The position numbers were made by a program, and so were the translations under genes. DNA of 64,000 nt from Janthinobacterium lividum. GTDB lineage: Bacteria > Pseudomonadota > Gammaproteobacteria > Burkholderiales > Burkholderiaceae_D. The DNA lies in contig NZ_CP139976.1 in NCBI RefSeq assembly GCF_034424625.1, positions 2,914,001-2,978,000 of the forward strand, in the 5' to 3' direction. The first letter of the stretch is position 1, and each line of letters opens with the position of its first letter. The notes under the pieces are model-generated. The model did not search any database. It had not been told where the DNA came from and saw nothing but the letters and a program-made list of their open reading frames with translations. This document shows positions 30,319 through 55,805 of this stretch, piece by piece.

Positions 30319-30405
30319 GCCTTGCTGAAGCTGGCGCATCGGCACCCGTGTGAATGCCCGCCCGCGGCAGGGCATTCATCTTTTTTGGCTCTTCGAGGAA
30401 TTACC

Positions 30406-30792: not shown

Positions 30793-30799
30793 ACGCGCG

Positions 30800-32909: not shown

Positions 32910-33484
32910 AGCTGAGCGCCGTGATCCAGCTGATCGACGGTTTCAGCATGGCGCCGGCAGTGGGCGCGCGCGCGCATTTCCTGCTGAACGACAAACCGAT
33001 TGTGCCGCAGGACAAGGCGCAGGCCTTTTACGCCTTTGCCGGCCTCGACGACGGCAGCTACCGGCTCGACGTACTCAGTGCCGACCACCGCTACTTTGAC
33101 CAGCAGCTGACGTTCGAGGTGCCGCTCAAGGAGCCGCTGGCCGACGCCATCGTCGCCTGCGTGCTGGCGCCCAGTCCCCTCTATCCGTATCCCGAGGGGA
33201 CCACGCTGATCCGCGGCAAGATCGTCGACGCCGCCGCGCAACCGCTGGCCCAGGTCGCCATCAGTGCCGGCTACCAGGGCGCGCGCGCCAGGGCGCAGGC
33301 AGTGGCGGGCGCCTCGTCCGGCTACGGCCGCTATGCGGGCCGATACGCGCTGGCGCTGCGCGGCAAGCTGGACGCTCCAACCACGGTCGCGCTCGGCTTT
33401 AGCAAGGCCGGCCACGCCAAGGTCAGCAGGCAGGTCAGCGTGCAACCAGGTTCCATGCTGTTCCTTGACATCGAGATGCCGTAA
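32906..33484 (+). CDS. Carboxypeptidase-regulatory-like beta-sandwich protein of the eCIS operon
   Basis: The 192-residue protein has two beta-sandwich parts. The second (about 95-192, TLIRGKIVDAAAQPLAQVAIS) looks like the carboxypeptidase regulatory or Ig-like fold often used for decorating or anchoring. No signal peptide is present, so it is assembled in the cytoplasm like other eCIS parts. The ATGA overlap with the DUF4255 gene indicates coupling. Its role in the particle is not known. Confidence 0.7.
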   Translation: MKLSAVIQLIDGFSMAPAVGARAHFLLNDKPIVPQDKAQAFYAFAGLDDGSYRLDVLSADHRYFDQQLTFEVPLKEPLADAIVACVLAPSPLYPYPEGTTLIRGKIVDAAAQPLAQVAISAGYQGARARAQAVAGASSGYGRYAGRYALALRGKLDAPTTVALGFSKAGHAKVSRQVSVQPGSMLFLDIEMP

Positions 33485-33503
33485 TCCACACGAGAGACTT
33501 ATT

Positions 33504-35162
33504 TTGGCCACTTATAACCATCCCGGTATTTATATTCAGGAAGTGCCAGGCACCCGCAGCATCCAGGGCGCTTCCACATCGACCCCGGCTTTCGTCGGCG
33601 TGACGGAAACGGGGCCGTACATGCAGCCCATCCTGCTCACCAGCTGGGCCGCCTACCAGCGCACGTTCGGCCAGCTGGCCTGGTATGCGATGGTGTCGTG
33701 GTCGGTCTACGAATTCTTCAACGAAGGGGGCGCCGCCTGCTATGTGGTGCGCGCCAGCGACAAGGCAAGCGCCAAGTGTGCCAGCGCCAAACAGCCGCTG
33801 GCCGTCACGGCCGTCACACCGGGACCCTGGGGCAACGCCATCAGCATCATGATCAGCAACGCCAGCGCGACCGACCCGAGCATCACGCCGGCGCCCACCA
33901 CGCCCGTCTTCAATGTCACCGTGATGGTGGCGGCGGCGCTGATGGGCACGCCCGCCGCGCCCGTGGTGGCGACCATGCCGAACTTGCTGCTGCAGCAATA
34001 CATCGTGCAAAACAGCCTCAGCCCGCAAACCTTCGGCACGGCCTCCTATTACGTACTGGAGCAGTTCAACGGCTTCACGGCCAACAGCATGATCAACGAG
34101 GCCAACAAGCCCAGCTCGCTGGCGACGCAGATCAACGCCAATTCCATGTTCATTCGCGTGGCGGTCAACAGCACCGCTTCGCCCACGCCGCCAGTGCGGC
34201 CACCGAATGGCGGGCCGACGGCGCTGAGCAACGGCGGGAATCCGAATTACGACCTGACCGATGCCACCAAGCTGCTCGACAAGGTGCAGGGCCTGAGCCT
34301 GCTGTCCGTGCCCGACACCGTCACGGCCACCGACAACAGCGGCAAGCAGTCGCTGGCGCTGCAGGGCACCCTGATCAATGCCGGCCTGATGTTCTGCATC
34401 GACAAACGCAACCTGTTCTATGTGATCGATCCGCCGTTCGGCCAGAGCGTGCAGGACATCCTGTCATTCAAGTCCGGCCAGGGCCAGGCGCCGAAAGGCA
34501 ATCCGAACGCGCTCAACTCCGACTTCGGCGCACTGTATTACCCATGGGTCTACATCTACAATCCGATCGCCGGGGCCAACGTGCCGATCCCGCCATCCGG
34601 TCCGGTGCTCGGCCGCTACGCGTATACCGATATCAATGTGGGGGTGTTCAAGTCGCCTGCCGGGGTCAATGACGGCGCCTTGATGAGCGCGGTGCTGCTC
34701 GACCAGTCCCTGACCGATGCCGACCAGGACTTGCTGAACCCCGAAGGCATCAACGCGGTGCGCAATTTCATCAACTACGGCAACGTGATCTGGGGCGCGC
34801 GCACGCTGGCGCTCAACACGGAATGGACCTATGTGAGCGTGCGGCGCCTGTTCATCTATGTCGAGCAAAGCCTGCGCCAAAGCCTGATGTGGGTGGTGTT
34901 CGAACCCAACGACCAGCAGCTTTGGTCATCCATCTCGCGCGACGTCAGCGCTTTCCTGACCACCCTGTGGCAGCAGGGCGGCCTGTTCGGCGCGACGGCC
35001 GCCGAAGCGTTTTTCGTCACCTGCGACGAATCGAACAATCCGCTCGAGACGCGCATGCTGGGGCAGCTGTACATCGACATCGGCCTGGCGGCAGTGTATC
35101 CGGCCGAGTTCGTCATCCTGCGCCTGACCCAAAAAACCAGCGCGCCCGATTCCGGCAGCTGA
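33504..35162 (+). CDS. Contractile tail sheath protein
   Basis: Forms the outer contractile cylinder that drives the tube into the target. The 552-residue product begins ATYNHPGIYIQEVPGTRSI, the sheath N-terminal handshake region, and has the conserved C-terminal sheath domain (TLWQQGGLFGATAAEAFFVTCDE, then LYIDIGLAAVYPAEFVILRLTQ). The start is a TTG at 33504 with GAGAG upstream; no ATG fits the family N terminus. Only one sheath gene is present, whereas Afp and PVC carry three. Confidence 0.93.
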   Translation: MATYNHPGIYIQEVPGTRSIQGASTSTPAFVGVTETGPYMQPILLTSWAAYQRTFGQLAWYAMVSWSVYEFFNEGGAACYVVRASDKASAKCASAKQPLAVTAVTPGPWGNAISIMISNASATDPSITPAPTTPVFNVTVMVAAALMGTPAAPVVATMPNLLLQQYIVQNSLSPQTFGTASYYVLEQFNGFTANSMINEANKPSSLATQINANSMFIRVAVNSTASPTPPVRPPNGGPTALSNGGNPNYDLTDATKLLDKVQGLSLLSVPDTVTATDNSGKQSLALQGTLINAGLMFCIDKRNLFYVIDPPFGQSVQDILSFKSGQGQAPKGNPNALNSDFGALYYPWVYIYNPIAGANVPIPPSGPVLGRYAYTDINVGVFKSPAGVNDGALMSAVLLDQSLTDADQDLLNPEGINAVRNFINYGNVIWGARTLALNTEWTYVSVRRLFIYVEQSLRQSLMWVVFEPNDQQLWSSISRDVSAFLTTLWQQGGLFGATAAEAFFVTCDESNNPLETRMLGQLYIDIGLAAVYPAEFVILRLTQKTSAPDSGS

Positions 35163-35196
35163 GCCCATCCACACCGATTGATTGCGGAGAACGCGC

Positions 35197-35643
35197 ATGG
35201 CCACACAATTAACCGATCCCTACCGGGGATTCCGCTTCCGGGTCGAGATTGCCGGCATCCAGATCGCCGCGTTTTCCGAGGCGAGCGTACCCGACAGCAC
35301 GATCGAGGCGGTCGAATACCGCGAAGGCACCGACCCGGTCTACAAGCGTTCGCTGTCGGGGCTCACCAGCTACGGCAAGCTGAGCCTGAAGAAGGGCCTG
35401 ACCGACTCGATGGACCTGTACAACTGGTACCAGCTGGTGTCGACCCAGGGTTCGGGCGCGAAGGGGGCGCAAAAGAACGTTTCGCTGATACTCATGGATG
35501 CAGGCGGCGCCGACAAGGCGCGCTGGAACGTGATCAGCGCCTGGGCCAGCAAGTACGAAAGCTCGGGCCTCAACGCGGCCAGCAGCGACGTGATGATCGA
35601 GACGTTCGAACTGACGATGCAATACATGACGCGCGTGTCGTAA
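35197..35643 (+). CDS. Tail tube protein 1 (gp19-like)
   Basis: Inner tube subunit of the injection system. The 148-residue product opens with DPYRGFRFRVEIAGIQIAAFSEASV and has GLTSYGKLSLKKGL and EIFELTMQYMTR-like ETFELTMQYMTR, matching the T4 gp19/Afp1-type fold. GCGGAGA precedes the ATG. It follows the sheath gene directly, as in P2-like tails, and has a paralogue at 36202-36714. Confidence 0.9.
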   Translation: MATQLTDPYRGFRFRVEIAGIQIAAFSEASVPDSTIEAVEYREGTDPVYKRSLSGLTSYGKLSLKKGLTDSMDLYNWYQLVSTQGSGAKGAQKNVSLILMDAGGADKARWNVISAWASKYESSGLNAASSDVMIETFELTMQYMTRVS

Positions 35644-35664: not shown

Positions 35665-36048
35665 ATGAGCGTGATCTGTACCGAAATCGAATTTATCCTG
35701 CCCTTGGGTTACCGCGACGGCGACGGCAACCTGCACCGCAATGGCGTGATGCGCCTGGCCACCGCCGGCGACGAGATCCTGCCGCTCAAGGACCATCGCG
35801 TCCAGAGCAACCCGGCCTACCTGATCATCATCGTGCTGTCGCGCGTGATCGTGCGTCTGGGCAGCCTTGAAATGGTCAGCACCAAGGTGGTCGAGGAGCT
35901 GTTCGCGGCCGACTTCTTCCACCTGCAGCAGCTGTACAACAAGATCAACCAGGTCGATACCGACGACGCCGGCTTGCCGGGGGAGGCGCAGGGCGCCCTG
36001 GGAAAGCCGGGCTTGCTCCAGTTTCCGACCAGCTTTACGCAGAGATAG
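35665..36048 (+). CDS. Phage-tail-type assembly protein (chaperone, P2 gpE-like position)
   Basis: The 127-residue product of the unshifted frame resembles the phage tail assembly chaperone group (P2 E, Mu gp41) by size, position after the tube gene and character (EFILPLGYRDGDGNLHRNGVMRLATAGDE, a VVEELFAADFFHLQQLYNKIN helix). Its last 14 codons overlap a -1 frame that continues for 152 bases. A slippery GGGAAAG at codons 113-114 would let a minority of ribosomes make a 178-residue extended form, as for lambda G/GT and P2 E/E'. Confidence 0.85.
   Translation: MSVICTEIEFILPLGYRDGDGNLHRNGVMRLATAGDEILPLKDHRVQSNPAYLIIIVLSRVIVRLGSLEMVSTKVVEELFAADFFHLQQLYNKINQVDTDDAGLPGEAQGALGKPGLLQFPTSFTQR
35979..36006 (+). 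other. Candidate programmed -1 ribosomal frameshift site
   Basis: The heptamer G-GGA-AAG occupies 36000-36006 in the correct phase (codons CTG GGA AAG), identical to the lambda G/T slip site. GGGGGAGG (35979-35986), a strong Shine-Dalgarno-like sequence with no usable start codon after it, ends 13 bases upstream, similar to the stimulator in dnaX. The new frame stays open to 36200. Confidence 0.7.
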
Positions 36049-36200
36049 CCTTCCTCGCCTATCACTTTCACTGGTCCCATGAAGACCTGATGGCGATGGA
36101 ACACGCCGAGCGGCGCCGCTGGTGCGGCGAAATCAGCAAGATCAACCAGACGATGAATGCCGACGAGCGGCACAAGTCGATGCATAACCTGGGAGCATGA
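36006..36200 (+). CDS. Frameshift extension of the tail assembly protein (DUF6760-like)
   Basis: 64 codons in the -1 frame relative to the tail assembly gene. The segment LYAEIAFLAYHFHWSHEDLM followed by AMEHAERRRWCGEISKIN looks like the short eCIS protein family I know as DUF6760. No ATG, GTG or TTG lies in this frame between about 35910 and the start of the conserved part (ATA at 36045); the first ATG (36090) is inside it. Expression by frameshift from the upstream gene is therefore favoured over independent initiation. The next gene starts 1 base after its stop. Confidence 0.7.
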   Translation, partial: AGLAPVSDQLYAEIAFLAYHFHWSHEDLMAMEHAERRRWCGEISKINQTMNADERHKSMHNLGA

Positions 36201-36201
36201 G

Positions 36202-36714
36202 ATGGTGGTCGGTGTCAATGCAGTCATGGGTGCCGCGCAGCGCCAACTGGGCCTGCGTATCGACCCGTTCAAGGCCTACAATTTTTTTGTCGAAGTTGAA
36301 GGCATCCTGGTGGGCGGCTTCATGTCCGTCGATGGGCTCGAATCGAAGACCGAGGTGCGCACCGTGCGCCAGGGCGGCGTCAACGACATCGAGTACAAAC
36401 TGCCCGGCCAGGTGACCTGTTCCGACCTGGTGCTCAAGGCCGGCATCACGGCGCTCGACCCGATGTGGCTGTGGTACCAGTCGACGCTGAGCGGTGCCAT
36501 CCGGCGCCGGAACGGCTCCATCTACCTGTTGGATGACCGCGGCTTGCCCAGCGTCTGGTGGGATTTCTACAATGCCTGGCCCGTGCAGTGGCAGGGGCCA
36601 AGCCTGGATGCGGGCGGCAGCCTGGTGGCATGCCAGTCGTTTACGCTGGCGCACGAAGGCATCCGCAAGAGCCTCGCGAGCAGCGTGTATTCGGCAGCGG
36701 CGGGGATACTCTGA
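36202..36714 (+). CDS. Tail tube protein 2 (gp19-like paralogue)
   Basis: The 170-residue product has the gp19/tube features LRIDPFKAYNFFVEVEGILVGGF, then VDGLESKTEVRTVRQGG and SDLVLKAGITALDPMWLWYQ, and a C-terminal FTLAHEGIRKSLA. Afp and PVC also have more than one tube protein, one of them starting the tube on the baseplate; this copy, nearer the baseplate genes, may be that adaptor. GGGAG lies before the ATG, and the next gene overlaps its stop. Confidence 0.88.
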   Translation: MVVGVNAVMGAAQRQLGLRIDPFKAYNFFVEVEGILVGGFMSVDGLESKTEVRTVRQGGVNDIEYKLPGQVTCSDLVLKAGITALDPMWLWYQSTLSGAIRRRNGSIYLLDDRGLPSVWWDFYNAWPVQWQGPSLDAGGSLVACQSFTLAHEGIRKSLASSVYSAAAGIL

Positions 36715-37859
36715 TGCGCGCTATGCGCCTTGGCTGCGCTGGCCTGGCACAGCGCTTCCATGCGGCGCGCGGCGCACCGCTGTGGCGTTTCGCCCATTCC
36801 GGCGCGCCGCTGCAGCTGCGCATGGCACATGGCGGAGGGGCAGGCCGGCACACGACGTCGGTGTTGCATTATTGGCAGCAATTTCGCTCGACCATGGGGC
36901 TGGTGGTGCGCATGCAGGGCATGGCGCGCAAGGCGGACATGGCCGAACGCATCGAGGTACGCCTGCTGGAATTGCGGGCCAAGCTGATGCAGGCGCACGC
37001 GCGGCAGCAAACCCTCGTGCGCCTGGTGCTGCCGCGCCTGGAGCGCGGCGTGGCGCAGGCGCAGCAGGCCAGGGCCGCGACCATCGCCTGGCTGGCGCGC
37101 GGTGCGGAGCAGCCAGCCCTGGCGCTGGCCGTGCGCCATTTCGCCGCGCAGCCGGCAGCGGGGCAGCGGGGCGCCGCAGCGTTGGCGCGTGCCGTCGCGC
37201 GTTGCTCCAGCCTGCGCGCCATAGCGGCGGCGTCTTCGCCGGCGCCGGCCCGGACAGCCATCCGGCGCGCGCAGCCGGCGGTACACAGGGCGGCTTCGCA
37301 ACCGGCCGCTGGCGGCACGGCCAGCCCCACGCCACGCCAGGCGGCGCGACGAAGCGGCATGGCCAGACGTGCGCCGACCCGCAATGGCGTTGCCGGGCCC
37401 GGCACGCCGTTCCTGCGTCCCGCATCGCATCCGGTACACTTTCCGCGCGCAACGCGCCCGGCCGTGCCAACCCTGCAGGCAGGCGCCTGGCGCCCCCCGG
37501 TGCAAGCCGTGCCGGCGCCATTGCCCGCGCCGGCCGCGCACGCCGCCATCGTCCTCGGACGCTACCAGGGCCGCCAGCCCGTGCGGCGCGACATGCGCCA
37601 GGCGGCGCCCGCTGCCACGGCCGAGCTGCAAAGCCGCGTCGAGCATATTGTCGATACGCGCATGCTCGGCGTGGAACGCGCGGTGCAGACCAGGGTAGTG
37701 CATGAAATCGTCCATGGCGGGCAGTCGCAGGAGCAGTTGCGCAAGGTGCTGGCCGAGACGCTGTTTTCCGCGCCCGTACTGGCCTCGCTGACCGACCGCA
37801 TGGCAAGCGCCATCGCGCGCCGCAGCGCCACCGAGCGCTATCGCCGGGGAGGCGCCTGA
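36714..37859 (+). CDS. Ala/Arg-rich helical protein, possible tape measure
   Basis: Function unknown. The 381-residue product is extremely rich in Ala, Arg, Pro and Gln. It has a predicted helical N-terminal part (about 45-145), a long low-complexity middle (150-290) and a helical C-terminal part (about 300-375, LQSRVEHIVDTRMLGVERAV). Its place between the assembly chaperone/tube genes and the LysM gene equals that of the P2 tape measure gene T. The length would be short for a full-length tape measure, so the assignment is tentative. Confidence 0.6.
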   Translation: MRAMRLGCAGLAQRFHAARGAPLWRFAHSGAPLQLRMAHGGGAGRHTTSVLHYWQQFRSTMGLVVRMQGMARKADMAERIEVRLLELRAKLMQAHARQQTLVRLVLPRLERGVAQAQQARAATIAWLARGAEQPALALAVRHFAAQPAAGQRGAAALARAVARCSSLRAIAAASSPAPARTAIRRAQPAVHRAASQPAAGGTASPTPRQAARRSGMARRAPTRNGVAGPGTPFLRPASHPVHFPRATRPAVPTLQAGAWRPPVQAVPAPLPAPAAHAAIVLGRYQGRQPVRRDMRQAAPAATAELQSRVEHIVDTRMLGVERAVQTRVVHEIVHGGQSQEQLRKVLAETLFSAPVLASLTDRMASAIARRSATERYRRGGA

Positions 37860-38500
37860 TGCTGGAAATGGCCAAGATCGTCGTGCATGCGACGCGCGAG
37901 GAAATCCCCGTGATGTACAACCCGACCGAACTGTCGCTGAACAAGACCGTGATGGTGCAGGGCGAGGGCTCGAACATCCAGTTCCAGCGGGTCAATAATG
38001 ACGACCTGACCGTGTCGCTGTTTTTCGATACCTACGAGCGCCAGGTCGATGTGCGCAGCAAGACCAACAAGATCGTCGCGCTCACCGTGCCCAGCGTGGG
38101 CACGAATGTGCGCAAGGAGCCGCCGGTGCTGGTGTTTACCTGGGCCGGTCCGCTGTTTACGGGCATTATCGTCAAGCTCGACCAGAAATTCACGATGTTC
38201 CTCAGTTCCGGCATTCCCGTGCGCGCCGAGCTGAACGTGACGTTCAAGTCGGTGCTGACGGAAGAGGAGGACTTGCAGTCGCGCGGCTATTTCAATTGCC
38301 GCCAGCTGTGGCAGGTCAAGCAGGGCGACCGCCTGTACCTGATCGCGCAAGCGACCCTGGGCGACCCGAACCAGTGGCGCCTGATCGCCGCCCAGAACAG
38401 CATCGAGGATGCCTTGAATTTCCCGCAGCGCAAGGATATCGGCCGCAATCTGGTCATTCCCGACGTGCATGCCGGCACCGCGGGAGCCGTGTATGCTTAG
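37859..38500 (+). CDS. LysM-domain baseplate hub protein (Afp7/Pvc7-like)
   Basis: The 213-residue product has a beta-rich N-terminal part with VMYNPTELSLNKTVMVQ, typical of contractile-tail hub or tube-initiator proteins. A C-terminal LysM-like region follows at about residues 145-206 (LWQVKQGDRLYLIAQATLGDP, NLVIPDV). LysM here probably links baseplate parts rather than binding peptidoglycan during delivery. It overlaps its neighbours on both sides. Confidence 0.87.
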   Translation: MLEMAKIVVHATREEIPVMYNPTELSLNKTVMVQGEGSNIQFQRVNNDDLTVSLFFDTYERQVDVRSKTNKIVALTVPSVGTNVRKEPPVLVFTWAGPLFTGIIVKLDQKFTMFLSSGIPVRAELNVTFKSVLTEEEDLQSRGYFNCRQLWQVKQGDRLYLIAQATLGDPNQWRLIAAQNSIEDALNFPQRKDIGRNLVIPDVHAGTAGAVYA

Positions 38501-39539
38501 CGTCCAGACCGGGGCATTCAAGATCCTGAAGAACCGCAGCCCCTTGCCATCCTCGATCGTGGCCGCCATCCACAACGTGCGCGTGCACGATGAAATCAAT
38601 GTGCCGGCCATGTTCAGCTTCACGCTCGACATGGTGAAGGCGGACGGCGCCTGGCAGGACGTCGACCTCGACGTATTCAAGCCGGGCGACCAGATCACGA
38701 TTTTCCTGGGCCTGAACCAGTTGCATCAACTGATCAGCGGCGATATCACGGCCATCGAACCGAGTTTCAGCACGGCATCCTCGGCCGCCACGATACGCGG
38801 TTTCGACCGCATGTACCGGCTCAAGTTCGGCACCCGCACCAAGACCTACAGCTTGCTCAACGATAACGAGATCGTCAGCGACGTGGCGCGCGCGGCACGT
38901 TTGCCGGTCACGCTGGAGGGCCAGCCGGACACCATCAACCAGTACGTCATCCAGAACAATGTCTCCAACTACGCCTTCCTGATGGAGCGCTGCAAGCAGC
39001 TCGACTATGAACTGCTCATGGCCGACACGACGCTCGTGTTCCGTCCCTCGGCCGAGGGCAACGGCGCCATCAAGACGCTCAGTTATCCGCGCGACCTGAG
39101 TGCGGTGAGCCTGAACCTGAAAGTGCCGACCATGGGCCAGAAGGTGACGGCCATCGGCTACGACGTCGAAACGAATGCCGTCATCACGGCCGTGGCGCAG
39201 TCCGGCACCAGCCAGGACAAGATGGGCGGCAGCGAAACGGGCTACGAGGCGGCGGAAGATTTTCCCAGTTCGGAAATGACGCTGCAATGTCCCGGCATCA
39301 GCGATCCGGCCGCGCTGCAGGCGGTGGCCGACGCGCAGTTCCAGAGCCAGCTGCAAAGCTTTATCGAAGGCCAGGCCAGCTTGGTGGGCGACAGCGACCT
39401 GGTGGCTGGCGTGAACATCAAGATCACCGGGCTGAGCGAGCGTTTTGACGGCACCTATTACGTCACCTCGAGCACCCACGACTATGACGACAGCAGCGGC
39501 TACAAGACGGACATCAACGTGCGCAGGACGGGTATATGA
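38493..39539 (+). CDS. Baseplate hub protein (gp27/gpD-like part of a split spike)
   Basis: The 348-residue protein resembles phage late-control D/gp27 and the N-terminal half of VgrG: a DEINVPAMFSFTLDM strand, the FLGLNQLHQLISGDI region and IRGFDRMYRLKFGTRTKTY. It lacks the OB/beta-helix spike, which is encoded by the next gene. ATG 38493 lies 8 bases inside the LysM gene. In PVC (Pvc8) and in VgrG the two parts are usually fused. Confidence 0.87.
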   Translation: MLSVQTGAFKILKNRSPLPSSIVAAIHNVRVHDEINVPAMFSFTLDMVKADGAWQDVDLDVFKPGDQITIFLGLNQLHQLISGDITAIEPSFSTASSAATIRGFDRMYRLKFGTRTKTYSLLNDNEIVSDVARAARLPVTLEGQPDTINQYVIQNNVSNYAFLMERCKQLDYELLMADTTLVFRPSAEGNGAIKTLSYPRDLSAVSLNLKVPTMGQKVTAIGYDVETNAVITAVAQSGTSQDKMGGSETGYEAAEDFPSSEMTLQCPGISDPAALQAVADAQFQSQLQSFIEGQASLVGDSDLVAGVNIKITGLSERFDGTYYVTSSTHDYDDSSGYKTDINVRRTGI

Positions 39540-40132
39540 ACGGCAACGCATCCGGGGTCGCGCTCGGCAAGGTCAGCAACACCGAAGACCCCAAGGGCCT
39601 GGGACGCATCCGTGTTTTTTTGACGCTGAGTGGCGCCACCATCGAGTCGGACTGGCTGCAGGTGATGAGCTTTTTCGCCGGCCCCGGCTATGGCGCCTTT
39701 TTCCTGCCGAGGAAAGACGATTCGGCCTTGCTGGCCTTCGCCGACGGCGACCCGAACCAGCCGTATGTGCTGGGCTTCCTGTGGAACGGCGTGCAAAAGC
39801 CGCCCGTCGAGGCGGCCCGGCAGCAGGAAGTGCGCATGCTCAGGACGCAGTTGGGCAAGACCATCGTGCTCGACGATAGTGCGCAGGGCAAGATCACCAT
39901 CATCGACGAAAAGAACAACCAGATCGAGCTCGATACCGCCAACAACAAGATCAGCATCAGCAGCGAAGGCGACCTGGCGATCAGCGCCAAGGGCACGCTG
40001 ACCATCAGCGCGCCCCACGTGGTGCTGCAGACTACGGACGGCAGCGTCAAGGCCGATTTGTCGGCCGAGGGCATGCAGTTGCAGGGCGCAAAGGCGCTCA
40101 AGCTGCAGGCCGCCATGATCGATCTGAACTGA
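39536..40132 (+). CDS. Baseplate spike protein (gp5/gpV-like, OB plus beta-helix)
   Basis: The 198-residue protein has an N-terminal OB fold (ALGKVSNTEDPKGLGRIRVFL, DWLQVMSFFAGPGYGAFFLPR, PYVLGFLWNG) and a C-terminal repeat region (KTIVLDDSAQGKITIIDEKN and similar) that would form the triangular beta-helix of the spike. It completes the hub encoded by the preceding gene and is followed by the PAAR-like tip. The gene overlaps both neighbours. Confidence 0.9.
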   Translation: MNGNASGVALGKVSNTEDPKGLGRIRVFLTLSGATIESDWLQVMSFFAGPGYGAFFLPRKDDSALLAFADGDPNQPYVLGFLWNGVQKPPVEAARQQEVRMLRTQLGKTIVLDDSAQGKITIIDEKNNQIELDTANNKISISSEGDLAISAKGTLTISAPHVVLQTTDGSVKADLSAEGMQLQGAKALKLQAAMIDLN

Positions 40133-40545
40133 TGGGCATGGGCGCAGCCAAGGCGGGCGACAGTATCGTCAACGCCGCCGACATCCACATCGTACTGGTG
40201 CCGAGCCCGGGCGGACCGGTGCCGACCCCGCAGCCGTTCCCGTTTTCCGGCAAGATCGCCAGCAATACCAGTATGAACGTGCGCATCAACGGCAGGCCTG
40301 CGGCGACCGTCGGTTCGATGGCCAACAATGTGCCGCCGCATATCGCCGCCAGCGGCCAGTTCCAGGTGCCGCCCACCAATCTCGGGCAGGTGATGCTTGG
40401 CAGCTTGACGGTCCGCATCAACGGCAAGGGCGCCGCGCGCGCGGGCGACCTGTGCGAAACCTGCCACGACCTGCCGCCGGCCGGTCCGCAGGCGCCGCCG
40501 CCGACCGTGCAGGTGGCCGGCATGAGCACCGTGAGGATGGGCTAG
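40132..40545 (+). CDS. PAAR-like spike tip protein
   Basis: The 137-residue protein sharpens the spike and can carry cargo. PAAR-like features are present: AAKAGDSIVNAADIHIV at the start, repeated Gly/Asn-rich strands (NVRINGRPAATVGSMANN, LTVRINGKGAARAGD) and paired His/Cys residues (PPHIAAS, ETCHD) that may bind a metal. ATG 40132 overlaps the spike gene's stop. Confidence 0.85.
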   Translation: MGMGAAKAGDSIVNAADIHIVLVPSPGGPVPTPQPFPFSGKIASNTSMNVRINGRPAATVGSMANNVPPHIAASGQFQVPPTNLGQVMLGSLTVRINGKGAARAGDLCETCHDLPPAGPQAPPPTVQVAGMSTVRMG

Positions 40546-40951: not shown

Positions 40952-41149
40952 ATGGACATACAATTGATCAACGACCGCCTTGCCGAATTGAAAAGCAACG
41001 AAAGTGCGGGACAAGCGCAGCTGCAGGCGCTGCAGGACGAATTCAACGAGCGCAAACGCCAGCTCCAGGCAACCTTGCTGCGCATCAGCGGCGCCATCCA
41101 GGTGCTTGAAGAGCTGCGCGCGGAAGCGGCAGGCGAGCCGCGTCCATGA
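40952..41149 (+). CDS. Small coiled-coil protein of the eCIS operon
   Basis: Function unknown. The 65-residue product (MDIQLINDRLAELKSNES...) is almost entirely charged amphipathic helix with heptad-like Leu spacing, so it probably forms a coiled coil. AGGA lies 7 bases upstream, and the stop overlaps the gp6-like gene by 4 bases, which supports real translation. It may be a baseplate assembly factor. Confidence 0.7.
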   Translation: MDIQLINDRLAELKSNESAGQAQLQALQDEFNERKRQLQATLLRISGAIQVLEELRAEAAGEPRP

Positions 41150-44100
41150 CTTCCCCGACGCTCGACTTCCGCGACGCCGAGCAGTTTTATGCGCAGACGC
41201 TGGCGCTGGCCAAGGCCTACGTTCCCGAATGGAGCGGCTACTGGAATACGCTGCCGCCAAGTGCGTCGGACGTCGACCAGGATCCGGGGCTGGTGCTGCT
41301 GAAGCTGTTTTCGCAGCTGGCCGCGTACACGGCCGATATCGAGAACGCCATGCCGGAGCAGCGCCGCCTGGGGTTTTTCCAGTTCATGAACATGCAGTTG
41401 CGCGCGCCGCTGGCGGCGCAGGCGCCGCTGCGCTTCCTGCTCAAGGCAGGCCAGCCGGCGGCGACGGTGCCGGCCCAGTGCGCGGTGCTCGATGCGCAAG
41501 ACCAGACGATCCGCTTCCAGACCAACGAGGCGCTGCTGGTGCTGCCCGCCACGCTGTCGGCGGCGCTGACGGTCATTCCGGCGCAGGACCAGTTCATCGA
41601 TGCTTTGCCCAGCCTGCTCGGGGACCAGGCCGGGGTGCCGATCTTCGTGGCCAGCCAGCTGGTCGATCCGGCCGAACAGCCGCTCGGGCACTGGTTCATG
41701 ATGGGCGATCCGGCCCTGTTCAAGCCTGACGACGCGCTGCAGAGCATCACCGTCACCCTGACCGGCAAGCAGCTGTACCCTGAATATTTCGGACAATGGT
41801 TCGATGGCGCGCTGACGCCGCTGACGACGCAGTTGACGAGTTCATCGTCGGAGCGGCAGCTCGACATCGTGCTGGGCATGCCGCCGCGCGCGGCCGCCGT
41901 GCCGCTGGCGCAGCTCCAGCGGCAGTTGTACCGGGCGGGCGAGCCGGGCGCCGGTTTCGACGCCGCGCCCTTGAGCGGGCAGGATGGCGAAGCGCAATAC
42001 TGGCTGCTGGTCAAGCCCGCGCCGCAAGTCAAGGTGCTGGCCTCGCTGGCCCAGCAATTGCCCGTCATCACGGGGTTGAACTGCACCTTCAAGGGCAAGG
42101 CCATCGTGCCGCAGCAGGCCGCCTGCAATGGCGTGCTGCTCGATATCGCCAATGGCGCCTATCCGTTCGGCGAAACGCCGAAAACCAACGATGCGTTCTA
42201 CCTGCGCTCGGACAGCGTGTTCGCCAGGACCGGCGCCCTGGTGACGGTCTATTTCACACTGACGACCTTGGAATATACCTTTCCGGTGCGGCTGGTCTGG
42301 CAATTCTGGGACGGCTTGCAATGGAGCGCCTTCAACGCCACCACCACGGACGCCAGCACCTACCAGTTCGTCGACAGGATCAACAATTTTCAGTCCGATA
42401 GCCCGGACGGCCCCACCTGCATCCAGTTCGCCTGCCCGAAGTTCGGTCCGGGCACCGTGGCCGGTTCCGAAGGGCTGTGGATACGCTGCGTGATCGCCGA
42501 AGGCGGTTACGGGCAGCAGGGCGGCATTGCCAGCACCAGCGTCAGCACCACCATCGACGCCATCCCCGTGGATGTGCTGGGCCAGGCGCAAAAACTGGGA
42601 GTGAGCAAATACCTCAACGACGTGGCCGGCGTCAATTTCAGCTACACGATTTCCCAGCCGAGCTACTACCCGCCCTTCGTGCTCTCGGCGCGTATCGAAT
42701 ACAGCTTCGCGGCCAAGCCGCAGAGCTTCTGGAGCTACAACGCCTTCACCCTGAGCCGTTTCCTGTTCAGCCCGTTCAAACCGGTCGACGCGCTGCTGAC
42801 CGGCTTCTATTTTGCCTTCGACGATGCGGGATTCGCCGCCGCCTGCGTCGGCAACAAGCTGGTCCTGTATTTCTATCTGCAGCAGGAACAGGCCGCCCCC
42901 GGGCGCACCCTGCAGTGGGAATACCACGACGGCCAGCAGTGGCGGGCGCTGGCGGTGGACGATGCCACCTACGGCTTGAGCCGCTCTGGCCTGGTCGGCT
43001 TCGTGGTTCCGGCCGCGATGCAGGCGGCCTACCTGTTTTCGCAGATGGCATTCTGGTTCCGCATCAACAATGCCCATGTCGACCGTACCATCCGTCTGTA
43101 TGGCATGTATCCGAACACGGTCATGGCGTCGAACCTGACCACCCTGGTCGATGAAGTGCTCGGATCGAGCAACGAGCAGATGTTCCAGCAGTTCACGCTC
43201 GACTATCCCCCCGTGCTGGCCGACCTGCTGCTGTGCGTGATCGAACCTGCCGGGCTGATGGCGGGGCAGGACCCTGGCGCGGCCGAATTTGCCGATGCGG
43301 AGCTGGCGGACGTGCGCGTGGGCGCCGGCGAGGTGGCACGGCGCTGGACCCAGGTCGAGAGCTTCGCCTTCAGCGGTCCGACCGACCGCGTGTATACGCT
43401 CGACTATGCAAACGGGCTGCTGACATTTGGCGATGGCTACAACGGCATGATCCCGCCGCCTGGCCACAACAATATCGTCGCCATCCGCTACCACCATACG
43501 CAAGGGCTGGCGGGCAATGTGGGCGCTGGCGCGCTGACGGTGCTGCGTCCCGGCATCGCCAACATCGCCGCAGTGGCCAATCCGGCCCCGGCGGCCGGCG
43601 GGGTCGGCTGCGCTACGCGGGCAGAACTGGCGGCCACCAGTCCCGCGCTGGTGCGTGCGGGTGGCTGGGCCGTGCAACTGCAGGATTTCACGGCCCTGGC
43701 CGGTGCCGCCAGCGCCCAGGTGGCACAGGCACGCGCCGTGGAGGCCGAAGGCAATACCATTCGCATCGCGGTGCTGCCCCTGTCCACCGATCCGCTGCCG
43801 TACGCCAGCCCGGCGCTGCTGGACCAGGTGGGCGCGTATGTCAGGCAATACTGCCTGGCGGCGCTGGTCGGACGCATCGGCATCGAGGCGGCGCGCTATG
43901 TGCCGGTGTCCGTCACGGCGCAGCTGGCGGCCCGCGTCGCGCCCGACCAGGTGCAAGCCGAACAGGCGCGCATCGCGGCGCTGCTGCGCGCCTATTTCCA
44001 GCCGGTGTATGGCGGTCCTCCCGGGCAGGGCTGGCGTTTCGGCCAGACCGTGCAGGCGTCCGCCATCCATGTGCTGCTGCGCAGCCTGCCTGGCGTGACC

Positions 44101-44208
44101 GGCGTGCTCAGCCTGAACGTGAATGGGCGCCAGGATGGCAATGTCGTGCTGGCGCCCACCGAGCTGCCCGTCGCTGGCAGCATGCTCGTGTATATCTCGG
44201 CGGTGTAG
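41146..44208 (+). CDS. Large baseplate wedge protein (gp6/baseplate J-like, Afp11/Pvc11 type)
   Basis: The 1020-residue protein has an N-terminal DQDPGLVLLKLFSQLAAYTADIENAMP segment, typical of gp6-like wedges, and a C-terminal baseplate J-like region (GLAGNVGAGALTVLRPG, AARVAPDQVQAEQARIAALLRAYFQP, RSLPGVTGV). It forms the rim around the hub. The length fits the large eCIS homologues. It starts inside the preceding small gene and is followed 2 bases later by a shorter relative. Confidence 0.9.
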   Translation: MTSPTLDFRDAEQFYAQTLALAKAYVPEWSGYWNTLPPSASDVDQDPGLVLLKLFSQLAAYTADIENAMPEQRRLGFFQFMNMQLRAPLAAQAPLRFLLKAGQPAATVPAQCAVLDAQDQTIRFQTNEALLVLPATLSAALTVIPAQDQFIDALPSLLGDQAGVPIFVASQLVDPAEQPLGHWFMMGDPALFKPDDALQSITVTLTGKQLYPEYFGQWFDGALTPLTTQLTSSSSERQLDIVLGMPPRAAAVPLAQLQRQLYRAGEPGAGFDAAPLSGQDGEAQYWLLVKPAPQVKVLASLAQQLPVITGLNCTFKGKAIVPQQAACNGVLLDIANGAYPFGETPKTNDAFYLRSDSVFARTGALVTVYFTLTTLEYTFPVRLVWQFWDGLQWSAFNATTTDASTYQFVDRINNFQSDSPDGPTCIQFACPKFGPGTVAGSEGLWIRCVIAEGGYGQQGGIASTSVSTTIDAIPVDVLGQAQKLGVSKYLNDVAGVNFSYTISQPSYYPPFVLSARIEYSFAAKPQSFWSYNAFTLSRFLFSPFKPVDALLTGFYFAFDDAGFAAACVGNKLVLYFYLQQEQAAPGRTLQWEYHDGQQWRALAVDDATYGLSRSGLVGFVVPAAMQAAYLFSQMAFWFRINNAHVDRTIRLYGMYPNTVMASNLTTLVDEVLGSSNEQMFQQFTLDYPPVLADLLLCVIEPAGLMAGQDPGAAEFADAELADVRVGAGEVARRWTQVESFAFSGPTDRVYTLDYANGLLTFGDGYNGMIPPPGHNNIVAIRYHHTQGLAGNVGAGALTVLRPGIANIAAVANPAPAAGGVGCATRAELAATSPALVRAGGWAVQLQDFTALAGAASAQVAQARAVEAEGNTIRIAVLPLSTDPLPYASPALLDQVGAYVRQYCLAALVGRIGIEAARYVPVSVTAQLAARVAPDQVQAEQARIAALLRAYFQPVYGGPPGQGWRFGQTVQASAIHVLLRSLPGVTGVLSLNVNGRQDGNVVLAPTELPVAGSMLVYISAV

Positions 44209-44210
44209 CC

Positions 44211-45332
44211 ATGGCCTTCGAGCTGCCCGACCTCGACCGCAAGAGCTACCAGGAACTGGCAGCCGACCTGGTGCGCCGGATCCCGCAGTACACGCGCCAG
44301 TGGACGGACTATAACGATAGCGATCCGGGCATCACCCTGCTGCAATTGCTGGCCTGGCTGGACGAGTCGCTGCTGTACCAGGCCAATGCGATTCCCGTGC
44401 AGACGGACGAGAACTACCTGCGCTGGGTGCTGGGCCTGGCCTTTTCCGGCAACCAGACCGCCTACAGCCTGGCCGCCAAGGCCAACCATGACGCCGCCTT
44501 CCTGGCCTTGCAGCAGGTGCTGGCGCAGATCGAACAGGGCGCCGTGCTGAACAAGCCGACGCTGCAGCAATATGTGCTGGCCTATGTCGGCCGTCCCTAC
44601 ATGGCGCTGACCCTGCCGAACATCGACACGCTGGCGCTGGAAACCAACCAGGTCATCGCGCAGCAGGCTGCCGGCGGCACGGGCGCCACGCCGCTGCTGG
44701 TGCGGCGCGCGTATGCGCAAAGCGCGGGGGAGGGCAGCGTTGCCTGGATACTCAGCGATGCGCAATGGCGCTACCAGTATCCGCCGTATCCGAACCAGGC
44801 CGGCAACGGCAAAAGCAATAGCACCACGCGGCGCAAGGTGCTGATGATCGAGGCCGCCGACGACGCGACCGCCGAGCGTACCTTGCTCACGGCCGTAAAC
44901 AAATACCTGGCCCCGCGCGTGATCGCAGGCAACCGGGTGCAGGCGCGTGCGGCGCAGTTCACCGACATCAACGTGACGCTGGTCGCCGGCTGCGTGCCGA
45001 CGGTGCGCCTGGATGTCACGCTGGGCCTGCTGTTCGCGCGCCTCTTCGCCTACTTCCTGCCCTGCGAGGGAGGGCCGGCCGGTCAGGGTTGGCCATATGA
45101 CGAGGCGCCCACCGAAGCGGCGCTGCGCCAACTGGTCCTGGCCATGCCGGGCATCGATGCCATCGACGAGCTGGTCTTCGATTTCATCCCCACCCTGGCG
45201 CTCGACCGGATGGCCGTGCTGGACGTCAACGCCCAGCTTGCCGATCTGCCGCCCGGCACGCCCGCGATGTTTTACCGGGGATTGCCGCGCCTGCGCTGCC
45301 TCGATGTCAGCGTCAGGAGCAATGCCGCATGA
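44211..45332 (+). CDS. Second baseplate wedge protein (gp6-like paralogue)
   Basis: The 373-residue protein shares with the preceding gene the YNDSDPGITLLQLLAWLDESL segment near residue 30 and the C-terminal J-like end (AALRQLVLAMPGIDAIDELVF). It is therefore a shorter wedge homologue. Afp and PVC carry Afp11/Afp12-like pairs here. ATG 44211 is 2 bases after the previous stop, and it overlaps the next gene by 4 bases. Confidence 0.83.
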   Translation: MAFELPDLDRKSYQELAADLVRRIPQYTRQWTDYNDSDPGITLLQLLAWLDESLLYQANAIPVQTDENYLRWVLGLAFSGNQTAYSLAAKANHDAAFLALQQVLAQIEQGAVLNKPTLQQYVLAYVGRPYMALTLPNIDTLALETNQVIAQQAAGGTGATPLLVRRAYAQSAGEGSVAWILSDAQWRYQYPPYPNQAGNGKSNSTTRRKVLMIEAADDATAERTLLTAVNKYLAPRVIAGNRVQARAAQFTDINVTLVAGCVPTVRLDVTLGLLFARLFAYFLPCEGGPAGQGWPYDEAPTEAALRQLVLAMPGIDAIDELVFDFIPTLALDRMAVLDVNAQLADLPPGTPAMFYRGLPRLRCLDVSVRSNAA

Positions 45333-46306
45333 GCGCGCCGTCAAGCTACCTGCGCTACCTGCCTGCCGTGTACAGCACCACGCAGCCGGCTTTTCTGGCG
45401 CAGTACCTGAAGATTTTTGAAAAGATATTGACCGGCATCGGCGACGCGGAGCTGGGCGGGCGCAAGGGCATCCATGAGCTGCTGCAGGCGGACGTCATTG
45501 GCAATCTGTTCTATCCGCGCCTGAGTTTCCTGTTTCCCCCTTCGGACACGAGTTTCATGCCGCCCATCTCAGGCGCGACGGCAAAGCAGGAAACGGCCAT
45601 CCTGGCCGACCTCGACACCTATATCCAGGTGCCCGCGCCCGACGATCCGCTGGCCGGCTACGTGGCCGCCGCGCCGGGCGCATCGGACCCGAACGCGCCC
45701 ATCGAAGCCTGGCTCGACGATTTTCTCGACTGGCTCGGCGGCTGGGTCGCGCTGGCCGTCGACAACGACTGGGACATCGACCAGAAGCGCACCGTGATCG
45801 CGGAAATCATGGCCCTGTACCGCATGCGCGGAACCTTGCAGGGCCTGAGCATGCTGGCCAACCTGCTGCTCGGGCTGCCCATGGCCATGCACGGCCAGCA
45901 ACTGGACGACAGTGGCAAGTGGATTGCCATCGACGGCACCGTGTCGGTAAACATCAGCGCGCCGTCCCCACCCGACATCGTGGCAAGCGACCTGGCCGGC
46001 AGCGCCTTCATCGTGCGCGACGCTTACGTTAGCGGCGCGCCCGTCGTGGCGGGCTACCTGCCGTGGCTGTTCAATGTGCAGATGGTGCTGCCGAACGCGC
46101 ACAACCCGCTGTTCATCCTGACGGCTTCCAACGTGGCGCAGATCCAGGCGCTGTATGGCCGGCTCGAGCAGTTCCTGCGCGTCATGAAGCCTGCCGCCAG
46201 CAACTACATCATCACGATCGTACCCAGCATGCAGTTGCAGGCGCAAGGCTATGCCAGCGCGCTGGGCGTCAATACCTTACTCGGCCAACAAGGAATCCAG
46301 ACATGA
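45329..46306 (+). CDS. Phage tail protein I-like baseplate protein
   Basis: The 325-residue protein has the phage tail protein domain (TIGR02242-like): SYLRYLPAVYSTTQPAFLAQYLKIFEKIL at the start, and WLDDFLDWLGGWVALAVDNDWDIDQKRTVIAEIMALYRMRGT in the middle. Such proteins connect wedge and fibres. Both ends overlap neighbours (ATGA). Confidence 0.85.
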   Translation: MSAPSSYLRYLPAVYSTTQPAFLAQYLKIFEKILTGIGDAELGGRKGIHELLQADVIGNLFYPRLSFLFPPSDTSFMPPISGATAKQETAILADLDTYIQVPAPDDPLAGYVAAAPGASDPNAPIEAWLDDFLDWLGGWVALAVDNDWDIDQKRTVIAEIMALYRMRGTLQGLSMLANLLLGLPMAMHGQQLDDSGKWIAIDGTVSVNISAPSPPDIVASDLAGSAFIVRDAYVSGAPVVAGYLPWLFNVQMVLPNAHNPLFILTASNVAQIQALYGRLEQFLRVMKPAASNYIITIVPSMQLQAQGYASALGVNTLLGQQGIQT

Positions 46307-53056: not shown

Positions 53057-53548
53057 ATGTTCTTTCGCAATGACCAGTTCTCCTTTACGGCCCGCCTCGA
53101 GCAAGGCTGGGAAAGCGTGCTCGACGAATGCCTGGCGCTGCCGCATGCCGAGTTCGACGCCTGGCCTGAAACGGGCTTGTACAACCGCGGCTGGGATGTC
53201 TACGGCCTGGTGCTCGAAGGCCGTCCCATGCTCGAGAACGCCATCTTCTGTCCGCGCACGCTGGCCTTGCTTAGCTGCATTCCGGGTCTGGTGACAGCGG
53301 GCTTTTCGCGCCTGGCGCCCGGCACCGAGATCGCGCCGCACGTCGGTTATACGGACCGGGTGCTGCGCCTGCACCTGGGCCTGCGCAGTTCGCCCGACTG
53401 CGCCTTGCGGGTGGGTGCGGCCGTGCGCCATTGGCAGCCCGGGCGCTGCCTGGTCTTCGACGACACGCAGGAACATGCGGCCTGGAACCGCGGAGCTACC
53501 GACCGCCTGGTGCTGCTCGCCGATTTCACCAAGCCGGACGGGGTGTGA
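53057..53548 (+). CDS. Aspartyl/asparaginyl beta-hydroxylase-type oxygenase
   Basis: Small 163-residue member of the Asp/Arg hydroxylase family. His95 (IAPHVGYTDRVLRLHLGL) and Arg104, then His140 (FDDTQEHAAWNRG) and Arg150, reproduce the spacing I know for AspH (His679/Arg688 and His725/Arg735). AspH uses two His without the usual acidic ligand. Relatives hydroxylate Asp or Asn side chains or lipid acyl chains. No membrane segment is present, so a soluble protein substrate is more likely. Confidence 0.8.
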   Translation: MFFRNDQFSFTARLEQGWESVLDECLALPHAEFDAWPETGLYNRGWDVYGLVLEGRPMLENAIFCPRTLALLSCIPGLVTAGFSRLAPGTEIAPHVGYTDRVLRLHLGLRSSPDCALRVGAAVRHWQPGRCLVFDDTQEHAAWNRGATDRLVLLADFTKPDGV

Positions 53549-53552
53549 AACG

Positions 53553-55805
53553 ATGAGCGCCCAGCCAGCCACGGCCGCCACCGACAGCGGCGCCTATGCG
53601 GACAACGCGGCCCTGCAGCAGGCGCTGCGCACGCTGGCCGACAATATGATCGAGCTGGCCCTGCTGGCACGCCAGGCGGAGGCGTCCGCACCACCCGAAG
53701 CGGCGTCCGGCGCCGCCCTCGAGCGCCTGTACCGGCAAGCCAGCCAGCTGGGCGCGGGGAGCGCGGGCGGCGCCGATGCGGCCGCGCGGCTGGGCGCGCG
53801 CATCGAACAGCAGTGGCAATTGCTGGGCCAGCGTGCGGCAGCCACCGTCGAGGCGCAGATTTTTATTCCCTGGATCCATGTCTGCGCCCTGTTCAACCTG
53901 GACCGGCCGCAACAGGAAGTCTTGCTGTTCGGTTTGCTCAGCGAAATCGAATGGCGCTATGGCGCCATCGTGCGCGCTTTCGGCAGCGCCGCCAGCGCCG
54001 AGGGCAGCGAAGGCTGGATCGACCTGGCCGGCCTGGATGCCATGCTCGCCGCGTGCCGCGGCACGCGCCCGGGCTTGCAGCGCTGCCTGCTGGCCGATGC
54101 CGCCTTGCTGCACTGGGAACTGATCGTGCTGGCGCCCAATACCAGCCTGGCCGGACTGGACGGCGGTTATCGCCTGAGCGAGCCGATTGCCGCGTATCTG
54201 CTGGCCCAGTCCGCGCCGCGCCTGTGTCTCGAGCGCCCGCTGACCAGTCTGGACAGCACGCTGGCGCTCGACGAGCACCTGGCCGATGCCCAGGCCCTCG
54301 CGCAGCTGGCGCGTTTCATCGGGCACTGCGGCCCGGCGCAGGCGCGCGCGGCCAGCCATGTGCTGCAATTGCAAGGGCCGGACCTGTGGCTGGCCCGCAG
54401 CCTGTGCGCGGCGACGTTTGCGACGATGGGCATGGCATGCGTCGAACTCGACGGCAAGGAAATCTGGCAAGCCTATCTGAATGGGCAAAAGAACCGCCGC
54501 ACCTTGCTGGCGCGCCTGCGCCTGCTGTGCCGCGACGCGTTGTTGTGCAACCGCATTTTCGTGCTCCTGCATTGCCACTGGCTCGGCACGCAGGAGGGCG
54601 CCGACGACGACCTGCTTGACGAGGTCATGCAGGTACTGTTCGAGAGCCAGCCCTACCTGGCGGTCTTGAACGGTCCCGCGCGGCGGCTGTCCGACCTTGC
54701 TTTTCGGTATGCCCGGCACGAGGTGGCGGCCGTCCTGGTGCGCGTCCCGGCGCCGGACAGCCGCTTGCGGCGCGCCAGCTGGCTGCGCCATGCGGGTACT
54801 TTCGGCGTGGACATCGACGATGCCTTGCTCGCCAGGCTGGTCAATCAATATCTGCTGACGCAGGAGCAGATCGTGCTGGCGCTGAAGGAAACGGCGAGCC
54901 GGCGCATGCTGCAGGCCGAGGGCGAAGAGGGCAGCGCCGGCGAAATGCTGCTCGACGCCTGCCGCGCGCAGAGCAACCGTGAACAGATGAGCGTTGCCCA
55001 TGAAGTCAAGACCACCTACCGCTTCGGCGATATCGTCCTGCCGGATACCACGCGGCAGTGGCTGCAGGAAGTACTGCAATATGCGCAGCAGCGCCATCAG
55101 GTCATCGAGGAATGGGGTTTCAACCGCAAGAACGAACATGGCAGCAACCTGTGCATCCTGTTCTATGGTCCGTCCGGGACGGGCAAGACCATGGCCGCGT
55201 CGATCATTGCCAATGAACTGGGACTGGGCCTGTACCGCATCGACCTGGCCAGCATCGTCAGCAAATACATCGGCGAGACGGAAAAACACCTGGCCCAATT
55301 GTTCGACCAGGCCGAGGCGATGAATATCGTGCTGTTCTTCGACGAGGCCGAAAGCCTGTTTTCGAAACGCACGGAAACGAAGGATGCGCACGACCGCTAT
55401 GCCAACCTGCAAACCGGTTATTTGCTGCAGCGCATCGAAAGCTACACGGGGATCGTCATCCTGTCGACCAACCTGATGGCGAATATGGACAAGGCCTTTA
55501 CGCGGCGCTTCAAGTTCATGATCGAATATCCGTTTCCCGGAGGCGCGCAGCGCCTGCAATTGTGGCGCAGCGCCTTTCCGCCCGCCGTGCCGCTGGCCGG
55601 CGACATCGATTTCGAGCTGCTGGCCGAACGCGCGCCCCTGAGCGGCGCAAATATCAACAGCATCGCCGTGAACGCCGCCTTTCTCGCGGCGGCCGAGCAG
55701 CAGGCGGTGGGGCAGCGGCACTTGCTCAAGGCGACGGAGCGCGAGTACCACAAGCTGGGCAAGGTGTTTGCGCCCGATGATTTTCGCTGGGACGATGATG
55801 CGTAG
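53553..55805 (+). CDS. eCIS-associated AAA+ ATPase (Afp15/Pvc15 type)
   Basis: ATPase needed for particle assembly or cargo loading in Afp and PVC systems. The 750-residue protein has an Ala-rich helical N-terminal half of unknown fold and one C-terminal AAA module: Walker A GPSGTGKT (Lys545), Walker B VLFFDEAES (Asp597, Glu598), a NLMANMDKAFTRRF sensor and arginine-finger region. ATG 53553 follows the hydroxylase stop by 4 bases. Placed between the structural and the cargo genes, it could feed cargo into the tube. Confidence 0.9.
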   Translation: MSAQPATAATDSGAYADNAALQQALRTLADNMIELALLARQAEASAPPEAASGAALERLYRQASQLGAGSAGGADAAARLGARIEQQWQLLGQRAAATVEAQIFIPWIHVCALFNLDRPQQEVLLFGLLSEIEWRYGAIVRAFGSAASAEGSEGWIDLAGLDAMLAACRGTRPGLQRCLLADAALLHWELIVLAPNTSLAGLDGGYRLSEPIAAYLLAQSAPRLCLERPLTSLDSTLALDEHLADAQALAQLARFIGHCGPAQARAASHVLQLQGPDLWLARSLCAATFATMGMACVELDGKEIWQAYLNGQKNRRTLLARLRLLCRDALLCNRIFVLLHCHWLGTQEGADDDLLDEVMQVLFESQPYLAVLNGPARRLSDLAFRYARHEVAAVLVRVPAPDSRLRRASWLRHAGTFGVDIDDALLARLVNQYLLTQEQIVLALKETASRRMLQAEGEEGSAGEMLLDACRAQSNREQMSVAHEVKTTYRFGDIVLPDTTRQWLQEVLQYAQQRHQVIEEWGFNRKNEHGSNLCILFYGPSGTGKTMAASIIANELGLGLYRIDLASIVSKYIGETEKHLAQLFDQAEAMNIVLFFDEAESLFSKRTETKDAHDRYANLQTGYLLQRIESYTGIVILSTNLMANMDKAFTRRFKFMIEYPFPGGAQRLQLWRSAFPPAVPLAGDIDFELLAERAPLSGANINSIAVNAAFLAAAEQQAVGQRHLLKATEREYHKLGKVFAPDDFRWDDDA

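Follow-up and report, generated by a model that had tools for sequence, protein, structure and literature searches.

A predicted frameshift fusion in a contractile injection cluster

A tail assembly chaperone homologue encoded in a contractile injection cluster of Janthinobacterium lividum is very probably made in two forms: sequence comparisons suggest that programmed -1 frameshifting yields, beside the chaperone itself, a 178-residue fusion of the chaperone with DUF6760, a reading to which we give a probability of roughly 0.88. The gene lies in a window of 64,000 nucleotides (contig NZ_CP139976.1, positions 2,914,001 to 2,978,000), the whole stretch of DNA analysed here, and in the window's own genome the locus DNA and the chaperone protein each have a single match. 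The parts of the gene are:

35665..36048, + strand: chaperone homologue, 0-frame open reading frame (ORF) of 127 aa (PHROG 508 'tail assembly chaperone', 2.6e-6)
35871..36200, + strand: entire open stretch of the -1 frame, from the sequence, with its stop codon at 36198-36200
35979..35986, + strand: Shine-Dalgarno (SD)-like GGGGGAGG, 13 nt 5' of the heptamer
36000..36006, + strand: slippery heptamer G GGA AAG (GGGAAA is in phase in 8/8 DUF6760-bearing clusters of the window's clade)
36006..36200, + strand: -1 extension, DUF6760, 64 aa and stop (PF20546, 2e-20)

An earlier note on this DNA had placed an in-phase G-GGA-AAG at 36000-36006, and both coordinates and phase are borne out, the heptamer beginning at the third codon position of the 0 frame; the SD-like sequence that it saw ending 13 bases upstream is the one listed at 35979-35986. 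Its further claims, of a -1 frame open to 36200 that lacks an ATG, GTG or TTG start, of a DUF6760-like short protein and of a predicted fusion of 178 residues, likewise stand: none of these codons occurs in the -1 frame from 35871 onward ahead of the conserved core, Pfam assigns the -1 segment to DUF6760, and the predicted length agrees. The earliest ATG of this frame, at 36090, lies 3' of the YHFHW segment, and the sole near-start codon ahead of the first-ATG region is an ATA at 36045. This anatomy, along with the phase, the absence of starts, the recurrence of motif and frame, the constraint on the overlap and the homology of the parts to those of phage tail chaperones, is directly computed.

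In the proposed mechanism, ribosomes approaching the end of the chaperone gene would encounter G GGA AAG. The majority would go on to the TAG at 36046-36048 and release the 127-residue chaperone, and a minority would shift by -1 at the heptamer and continue as far as 36200, giving the 178-residue fusion with the predicted junction peptide ...GALGK-AGLAPVSDQLYAE... The upstream GGAGG would stimulate the slip, and the short and fused forms together would act on a tape-measure-like protein and on tube subunits, as lambda gpG and gpGT do. The slipping itself and the slip rate are what we infer.

Genomic context and domain affinities

The following neighbouring genes mark a contractile injection cluster, in which the chaperone gene sits between the two gp19-family tube genes:

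33480..35162, + strand: sheath protein (Phage_sheath_1C, 2.7e-15; ORF listed from GTG 33264, scanned from 33480)
35182..35643, + strand: tube protein, T4 gp19 family (Pfam, 1.6e-38)
36202..36714, + strand: second gp19-family tube protein (Pfam, 1.6e-35), starting just past the -1 frame stop
37859..38500, + strand: CIS_tube family protein (Pfam, 3.1e-21)
39536..40132, + strand: spike-type protein with a Phage_base_V domain (Pfam, 1.5e-20)
40132..40545, + strand: PAAR-motif protein (Pfam, 6.4e-11)
41146..44208, + strand: Baseplate J-like protein (Pfam, 2.7e-5)
45329..46306, + strand: Tail_P2_I family protein (Pfam, 1.5e-5)
53415..55805, + strand: AAA ATPase of the cluster (Pfam, 1e-27)

No tape measure was recognised by Pfam among the cluster genes scanned. 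At 29866-32277 of the window, 5' of the sheath gene, there are several consecutive ORFs, with listed lengths between about 150 and 410 residues and no family assigned.

The identity of the 0-frame protein as a chaperone is drawn from PHROG 508, which matches 43 of the 44 aligned 0-frame proteins; a Pfam scan of the window's own copy returned no family. Its AlphaFold model (mean pLDDT 74.5) has the HK97 tail assembly chaperone 2ob9 as its top match in the PDB, a weak one (E 0.21, TM 0.44/0.51). Matches in a viral structure library are weak too (best 3.4e-3), and there is a weak fold match to T4-like baseplate hub assembly proteins; the T4_baseplate family of Pfam is found in 2/44 chaperone homologues (best 0.034). 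T4-like phages themselves reportedly, to go by the title of a 2022 study by Vladimirov, have been suggested to use a mechanism other than frameshifting. The model of DUF6760 (pLDDT 86.6) gave no clear match to viral folds (best 2.9e-2). In a single hhalign comparison the DUF6760 profile could be aligned to the E' portion of gpE+E' from P2 (probability 83%, E 8.7e-6), and the Pfam family PF06528 (Phage_P2_GpE) weakly matches 8/33 DUF6760 segments (best 0.019), the window's falling below the cut-off. The profile of the chaperone 0 frame found no match in P2 gpE.

Recurrence of the -1 frame and the slip motif

The set compared comprises 66 chaperone genes from 64 records, which form 53 clusters at an identity of 85%. 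DUF6760 lies downstream in 51 of these genes; it occupies the -1 frame in 50, and the exception is a gene with an apparent one-base indel (L053). The 50 genes span Pseudomonadota, Bacillota, Cyanobacteriota, Actinomycetota, the archaeon Haloferax and IMG/VR contigs. An in-phase motif of the form G5[AG]N or GGGAAAN stands towards the 3' end of the chaperone ORF in 48 of these 50 genes, and ATG, GTG and TTG are all absent between slip site and conserved core in 22 of the 38 clusters. On these three counts the earlier note's claim that DUF6760 is made as a frameshift fusion is supported at the sequence level.

Taken by cluster, the in-phase motif falls within the last 30 codons in 36/38, against 4.5 expected under synonymous recoding with local codon use; in the two other phases it occurs in 5 and 1 clusters, and the other genes of the loci contain 25 in-phase motifs per 50,226 codons. 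The nominal P (2e-37) should not be taken at face value, because the motif set was fixed after the junctions had been inspected and the clusters are not phylogenetically independent. The 38 clusters divide into GGGGGAA (13), GGGGGAG (9), GGGAAAG (7), GGGGGGA (5), GGGAAAA (1), GGGAAAC (1) and two outside the motif set, with GGAAAAG in L022 and CCCGGGG in L040. Of 15 chaperone homologues without DUF6760, one has the motif (L009), and both DUF6760 and the motif are missing from L007, although it shares at least 85% identity with L002, a member of the window's clade. The comparison of junctions for which the earlier note had called thus reveals slip heptamers and overlap recurring across relatives, and the arrangement that it took to speak against a fusion, DUF6760 with its own ATG and with neither overlap nor slip motif, is not the pattern found in them.

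The distance from heptamer to stop in the window's clade is 2, 6, 15 or 20 codons; it is therefore the heptamer, and not its spacing, that is conserved. The overlap was compared over the last 8 codons before the stop in the five long-overlap loci of this clade (ten pairs): 1-7 of the 8 residues differ per pair in the 0 frame and 1-4 in the -1 frame, with one pair equal, and the base changes fall mostly at third positions of the -1 codons. The -1 frame in the overlap is under coding constraint.

Some side observations concern particular loci. In the Azospirillum locus L009 (3280-3320) GGGGGAG is in phase, with no recognisable DUF6760 on its 3' side. The Kovacikia plasmid locus L053 (1480-2500) carries two tandem chaperone genes, the apparent one-base indel lying ahead of DUF6760. 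Chaperone genes of Deinococcus and Treponema are without DUF6760 by profile; in three Deinococcus loci the chaperone gene is followed by a different small ORF that starts at an ATG or GTG of its own (L062 1962-2147, L064 1881-2060, L066 2087-2263), and these ORFs, which are not DUF6760 by profile, have in common a VY-x-L-x-L segment near the end. A CPxC pair (half of a zinc ribbon) appears 5' of the slip site, at alignment columns ~107-115, in the rows that do not belong to the window's clade; the clade itself lacks it.

Two designs of the slip site

The junctions fall into two designs, GGGAAA in the window's clade, with no unusually stable downstream hairpin, and GGGGGAR or GGGGGGA (hereafter G5). 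When the fold of the 54 bases 3' of the slip site was compared with that of synonymous recodings, it proved more stable than 95% of recodings in 18/27 G5 clusters and than 99% in 15/27 (median z -2.8), an unusually stable fold being absent in 9/27. The same test found such a fold in 0/9 GGGAAA clusters (median z +1.25), and in the window no unusual hairpin lies 3' of the heptamer.

The G5 stem pairs GGCUACC with GGUAGCC. Over 19 rows, 84.7% of cells pair, against 80.3% in shuffled rows (0/500 as high) and 31-50% when the register is slid, a count that leans towards the stem, since the rows were chosen after the folds had been seen, with L032, L047, L048, L049, L050, L054, L057, L059 and L060 omitted. 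The covariation score is 0.211, against 0.162 in shuffled rows (3/500), and 4 pairs are changed on both sides, against a shuffled mean of 2.8 and 4 at one slid register. RNAalifold, run on 28 G5-type rows, did not find this stem, and most rows of Streptomycetaceae either pair in a different register or fail to pair, L015 being an exception.

In the window's clade the candidate stimulator lies upstream: an SD-like GGAGG stands 13 nt from the heptamer in 6/8 clusters, inside the 9-14 nt range for -1 shifts given in PMC5009743. Set against synonymous recoding, the GGAGG ranks 15/200 in the window and 13 to 118 in the other eight GGGAAA clusters, and is thus not clearly unusual. The pattern is no more than suggestive of a conserved SD-like stimulator; given that no unusual structure lies downstream, stimulation in this clade would therefore rest on that weakly supported site. 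Within the SD-like stretch of the window, GGGGGAG occurs in slip phase at 35979-35985, the same type of motif that stands at the junction in most relatives, and it may be either a second slip site or a relic whose present role is that of an SD-like stimulator. The eight GGGAAA clusters from proteobacteria group with L009 (99/92) in a tree with unsettled bootstrap values, and the GGGAAAC of Haloferax is placed elsewhere.

Start codons at the junction and alternative explanations

The same arrangement could in principle reflect termination and reinitiation, in which a separate small DUF6760 protein is made from a codon, often non-canonical, that overlaps the chaperone stop, with the G-rich stretch as its ribosome-binding site. 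A canonical start does stand at the chaperone stop in 9/38 clusters; ATG or GTG is absent there in 30/38, and the slip motif is still kept. The stop-overlapping codon is most commonly ATA (14 of 38 clusters), followed by GTA, CTG and GTG (5 each) and by CTA, TTA and ATG (3 each), and in plasmid records DUF6760 is given a gene model of its own that begins at ATA (L044), CTG (L047) or TTG (L046), all of which would suit reinitiation. So would the position of the G run, which ends exactly 4 nt 5' of the stop-overlapping codon in 21/27 G5 clusters, and for this reason the phase test cannot on its own tell slipping and reinitiation apart among the G5 clusters; in the remaining six clusters, however, the spacing is 0, 0, 3, 3, 16 and 24 nt, and the G5 stem, where present, would bury the start. 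The constant spacing does not hold for the window's clade. In 17/38 clusters, the window included, the whole open part of the -1 frame ahead of the core is free of ATG, GTG and TTG. The window's heptamer lies 15 codons from the stop, and the stop itself is inside the conserved core, so that a start at the ATA would remove the conserved QLYAE residues. We accordingly keep reinitiation as an improbable rival, with a small residual chance left to it in the relatives.

A mixture of both products, the fusion and a free DUF6760 protein, is conceivable in those lineages where a canonical start coincides with the stop (several Streptomycetaceae, Rhizobium, Haloferax and one Pseudomonadota genome). Slip motif and start co-occur in L032, L048, L050, L051, L054, L057, L059 and L061, and we would put the chance of such a dual mode at somewhat over one in three; it concerns the relatives alone, whose products are predicted, and is inapplicable to the window, which has no start. 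Slippage of the RNA polymerase on the G run, producing a fusion mRNA, might be invoked for the runs of five or six G found in 27/38 clusters, but the window's GGGAAAG has no long homopolymer, and transcriptional slippage was rejected on that ground as very improbable. That a sequencing error or gene decay has split a once-single ORF is barely credible: one relative (L053) does show an apparent indel, elsewhere in the gene, but 50 genes, whose records come from several phyla, have the identical -1 relation, and this explanation too was rejected. Programmed frameshifting at the ribosome is thus the reading that we prefer for the window.

Comparison with known frameshift systems

Frameshifting is established in phage tail chaperones, as set out in PMC5009743 and PMC3091744. 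The earlier note had pointed to E/E' of phage P2, and a frameshift in E/E+E' is indeed annotated in the P2 database record and described in PMC3091744. P2 resembles the window in that the gene lies 3' of the sheath and tube genes and has a -1 extension that can be aligned with DUF6760; it differs in its slip sequence, TTTTTTG according to PMC3091744, and in its 0-frame protein, which does not align. P2, moreover, is a phage, whereas the window holds an injection-system cluster, known here from its genes. The alignment of DUF6760 with the P2 E' extension would be in keeping with the earlier note's suggestion that extracellular injection systems keep the frameshift logic of phage chaperones.

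The GGGGGAA found identically in 13/38 clusters here is the 'fivetwo' motif of PRFect and belongs, according to PMC10885494, to about a thousand SEA-PHAGES frameshifts. The SEA-PHAGES chaperones differ in that the window uses GGGAAAG and that the hosts of the motif here are injection-system loci. The phage Mu gp41 family (PF23746) has a weak, non-significant match in 4/44 chaperone homologues (best 0.016). Mu also frameshifts in its tail chaperone genes. Lambda G/G-T has the same design as the window, with a slip heptamer that we take to be the same GGGAAAG. The two lambda products are made at a ratio of ~30:1 and bind the tape measure, as described in PMC5009743.

No report of frameshifting in injection systems, DUF6760 or tailocins was found by title in a mostly open-access literature. 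The word 'frameshift' is absent from the system papers PMC10066040, PMC10598620, PMC8213781, PMC11126660, PMC8894136 and PMC8894135, and frameshift terms in passages of PMC13222765, PMC8528098, PMC8718954, PMC9022992 and PMC10269795 have other meanings or belong to reference entries. The predicted recurrence in injection-system loci of an event known from phage tail chaperones appears broader than the earlier note thought, and is computationally strong.

Implications for injection systems

Frameshifting might be a general and ancient feature of injection systems with a chaperone-DUF6760 pair, in bacteria and at least one archaeon, with the dose of the fusion deciding the length of the injector or the loading of tape-measure-like cargo, including in systems described as having no typical tape measure; one clade would then have exchanged the G5 site and hairpin for GGGAAAG, the old site possibly persisting as an SD-like stimulator. 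We put forward this wider scheme tentatively, as one that is rather doubtful as a whole. Two Streptomyces clusters without a typical tape measure are reported in PMC10066040, and a tape-measure-related effector in PMC11126660; that the ratio of chaperone forms bears on length or cargo in Streptomyces or effector systems is speculation.

DUF6760 is a family of unknown function, which some public records show as a stand-alone gene, even from an ATA or CTG. Should it instead form the frameshifted portion of a chaperone, such stand-alone gene models are wrong, and recoding of this gene could lose a needed product. Length control and assembly would become testable through the ratio of the two forms, and a recoding event known from phages would have outlived the phage.

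Assembly of the set of relatives

A scan of species genomes gave 21 loci, and searches at the family, order and phylum levels found matches in 7/195, 6/399 and 3/398 genomes, the window's own genome being counted each time. A plasmid search with the L013 homologue returned 41 records, of which 25 were used, with only the best place in each; the 16 left out comprise 15 of S. clavuligerus and one of S. cattleyicolor. The same homologue found no match among phage records. A scan of viral contigs added 7 loci.

Repeats of one place (L001, L023, L030, L031, L068, L069, L074) were removed before counting, and near-identical loci from different genomes (e.g. L005, L024-L026) were kept in the 66 and merged only in clusters. 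At a threshold of 1e-8, L073 (E 6.6e-5) was excluded. L042 is cut by a contig end and is nonetheless counted among the 15 without DUF6760; the second copy in L053 (frame 0, apparent indel) was excluded from the -1 count. When 299 genomes of the phylum were searched with the DUF6760 family, 6 matches were obtained, of which 3 passed the cut-off; the weak matches L033, L034 and L035 were dropped, there being no chaperone gene within ~3 kb around them. Contigs filed as 'viral' in IMG/VR (L036-L041) bear the chaperone-DUF6760 pair, and some of them may therefore be misfiled injection-system loci.
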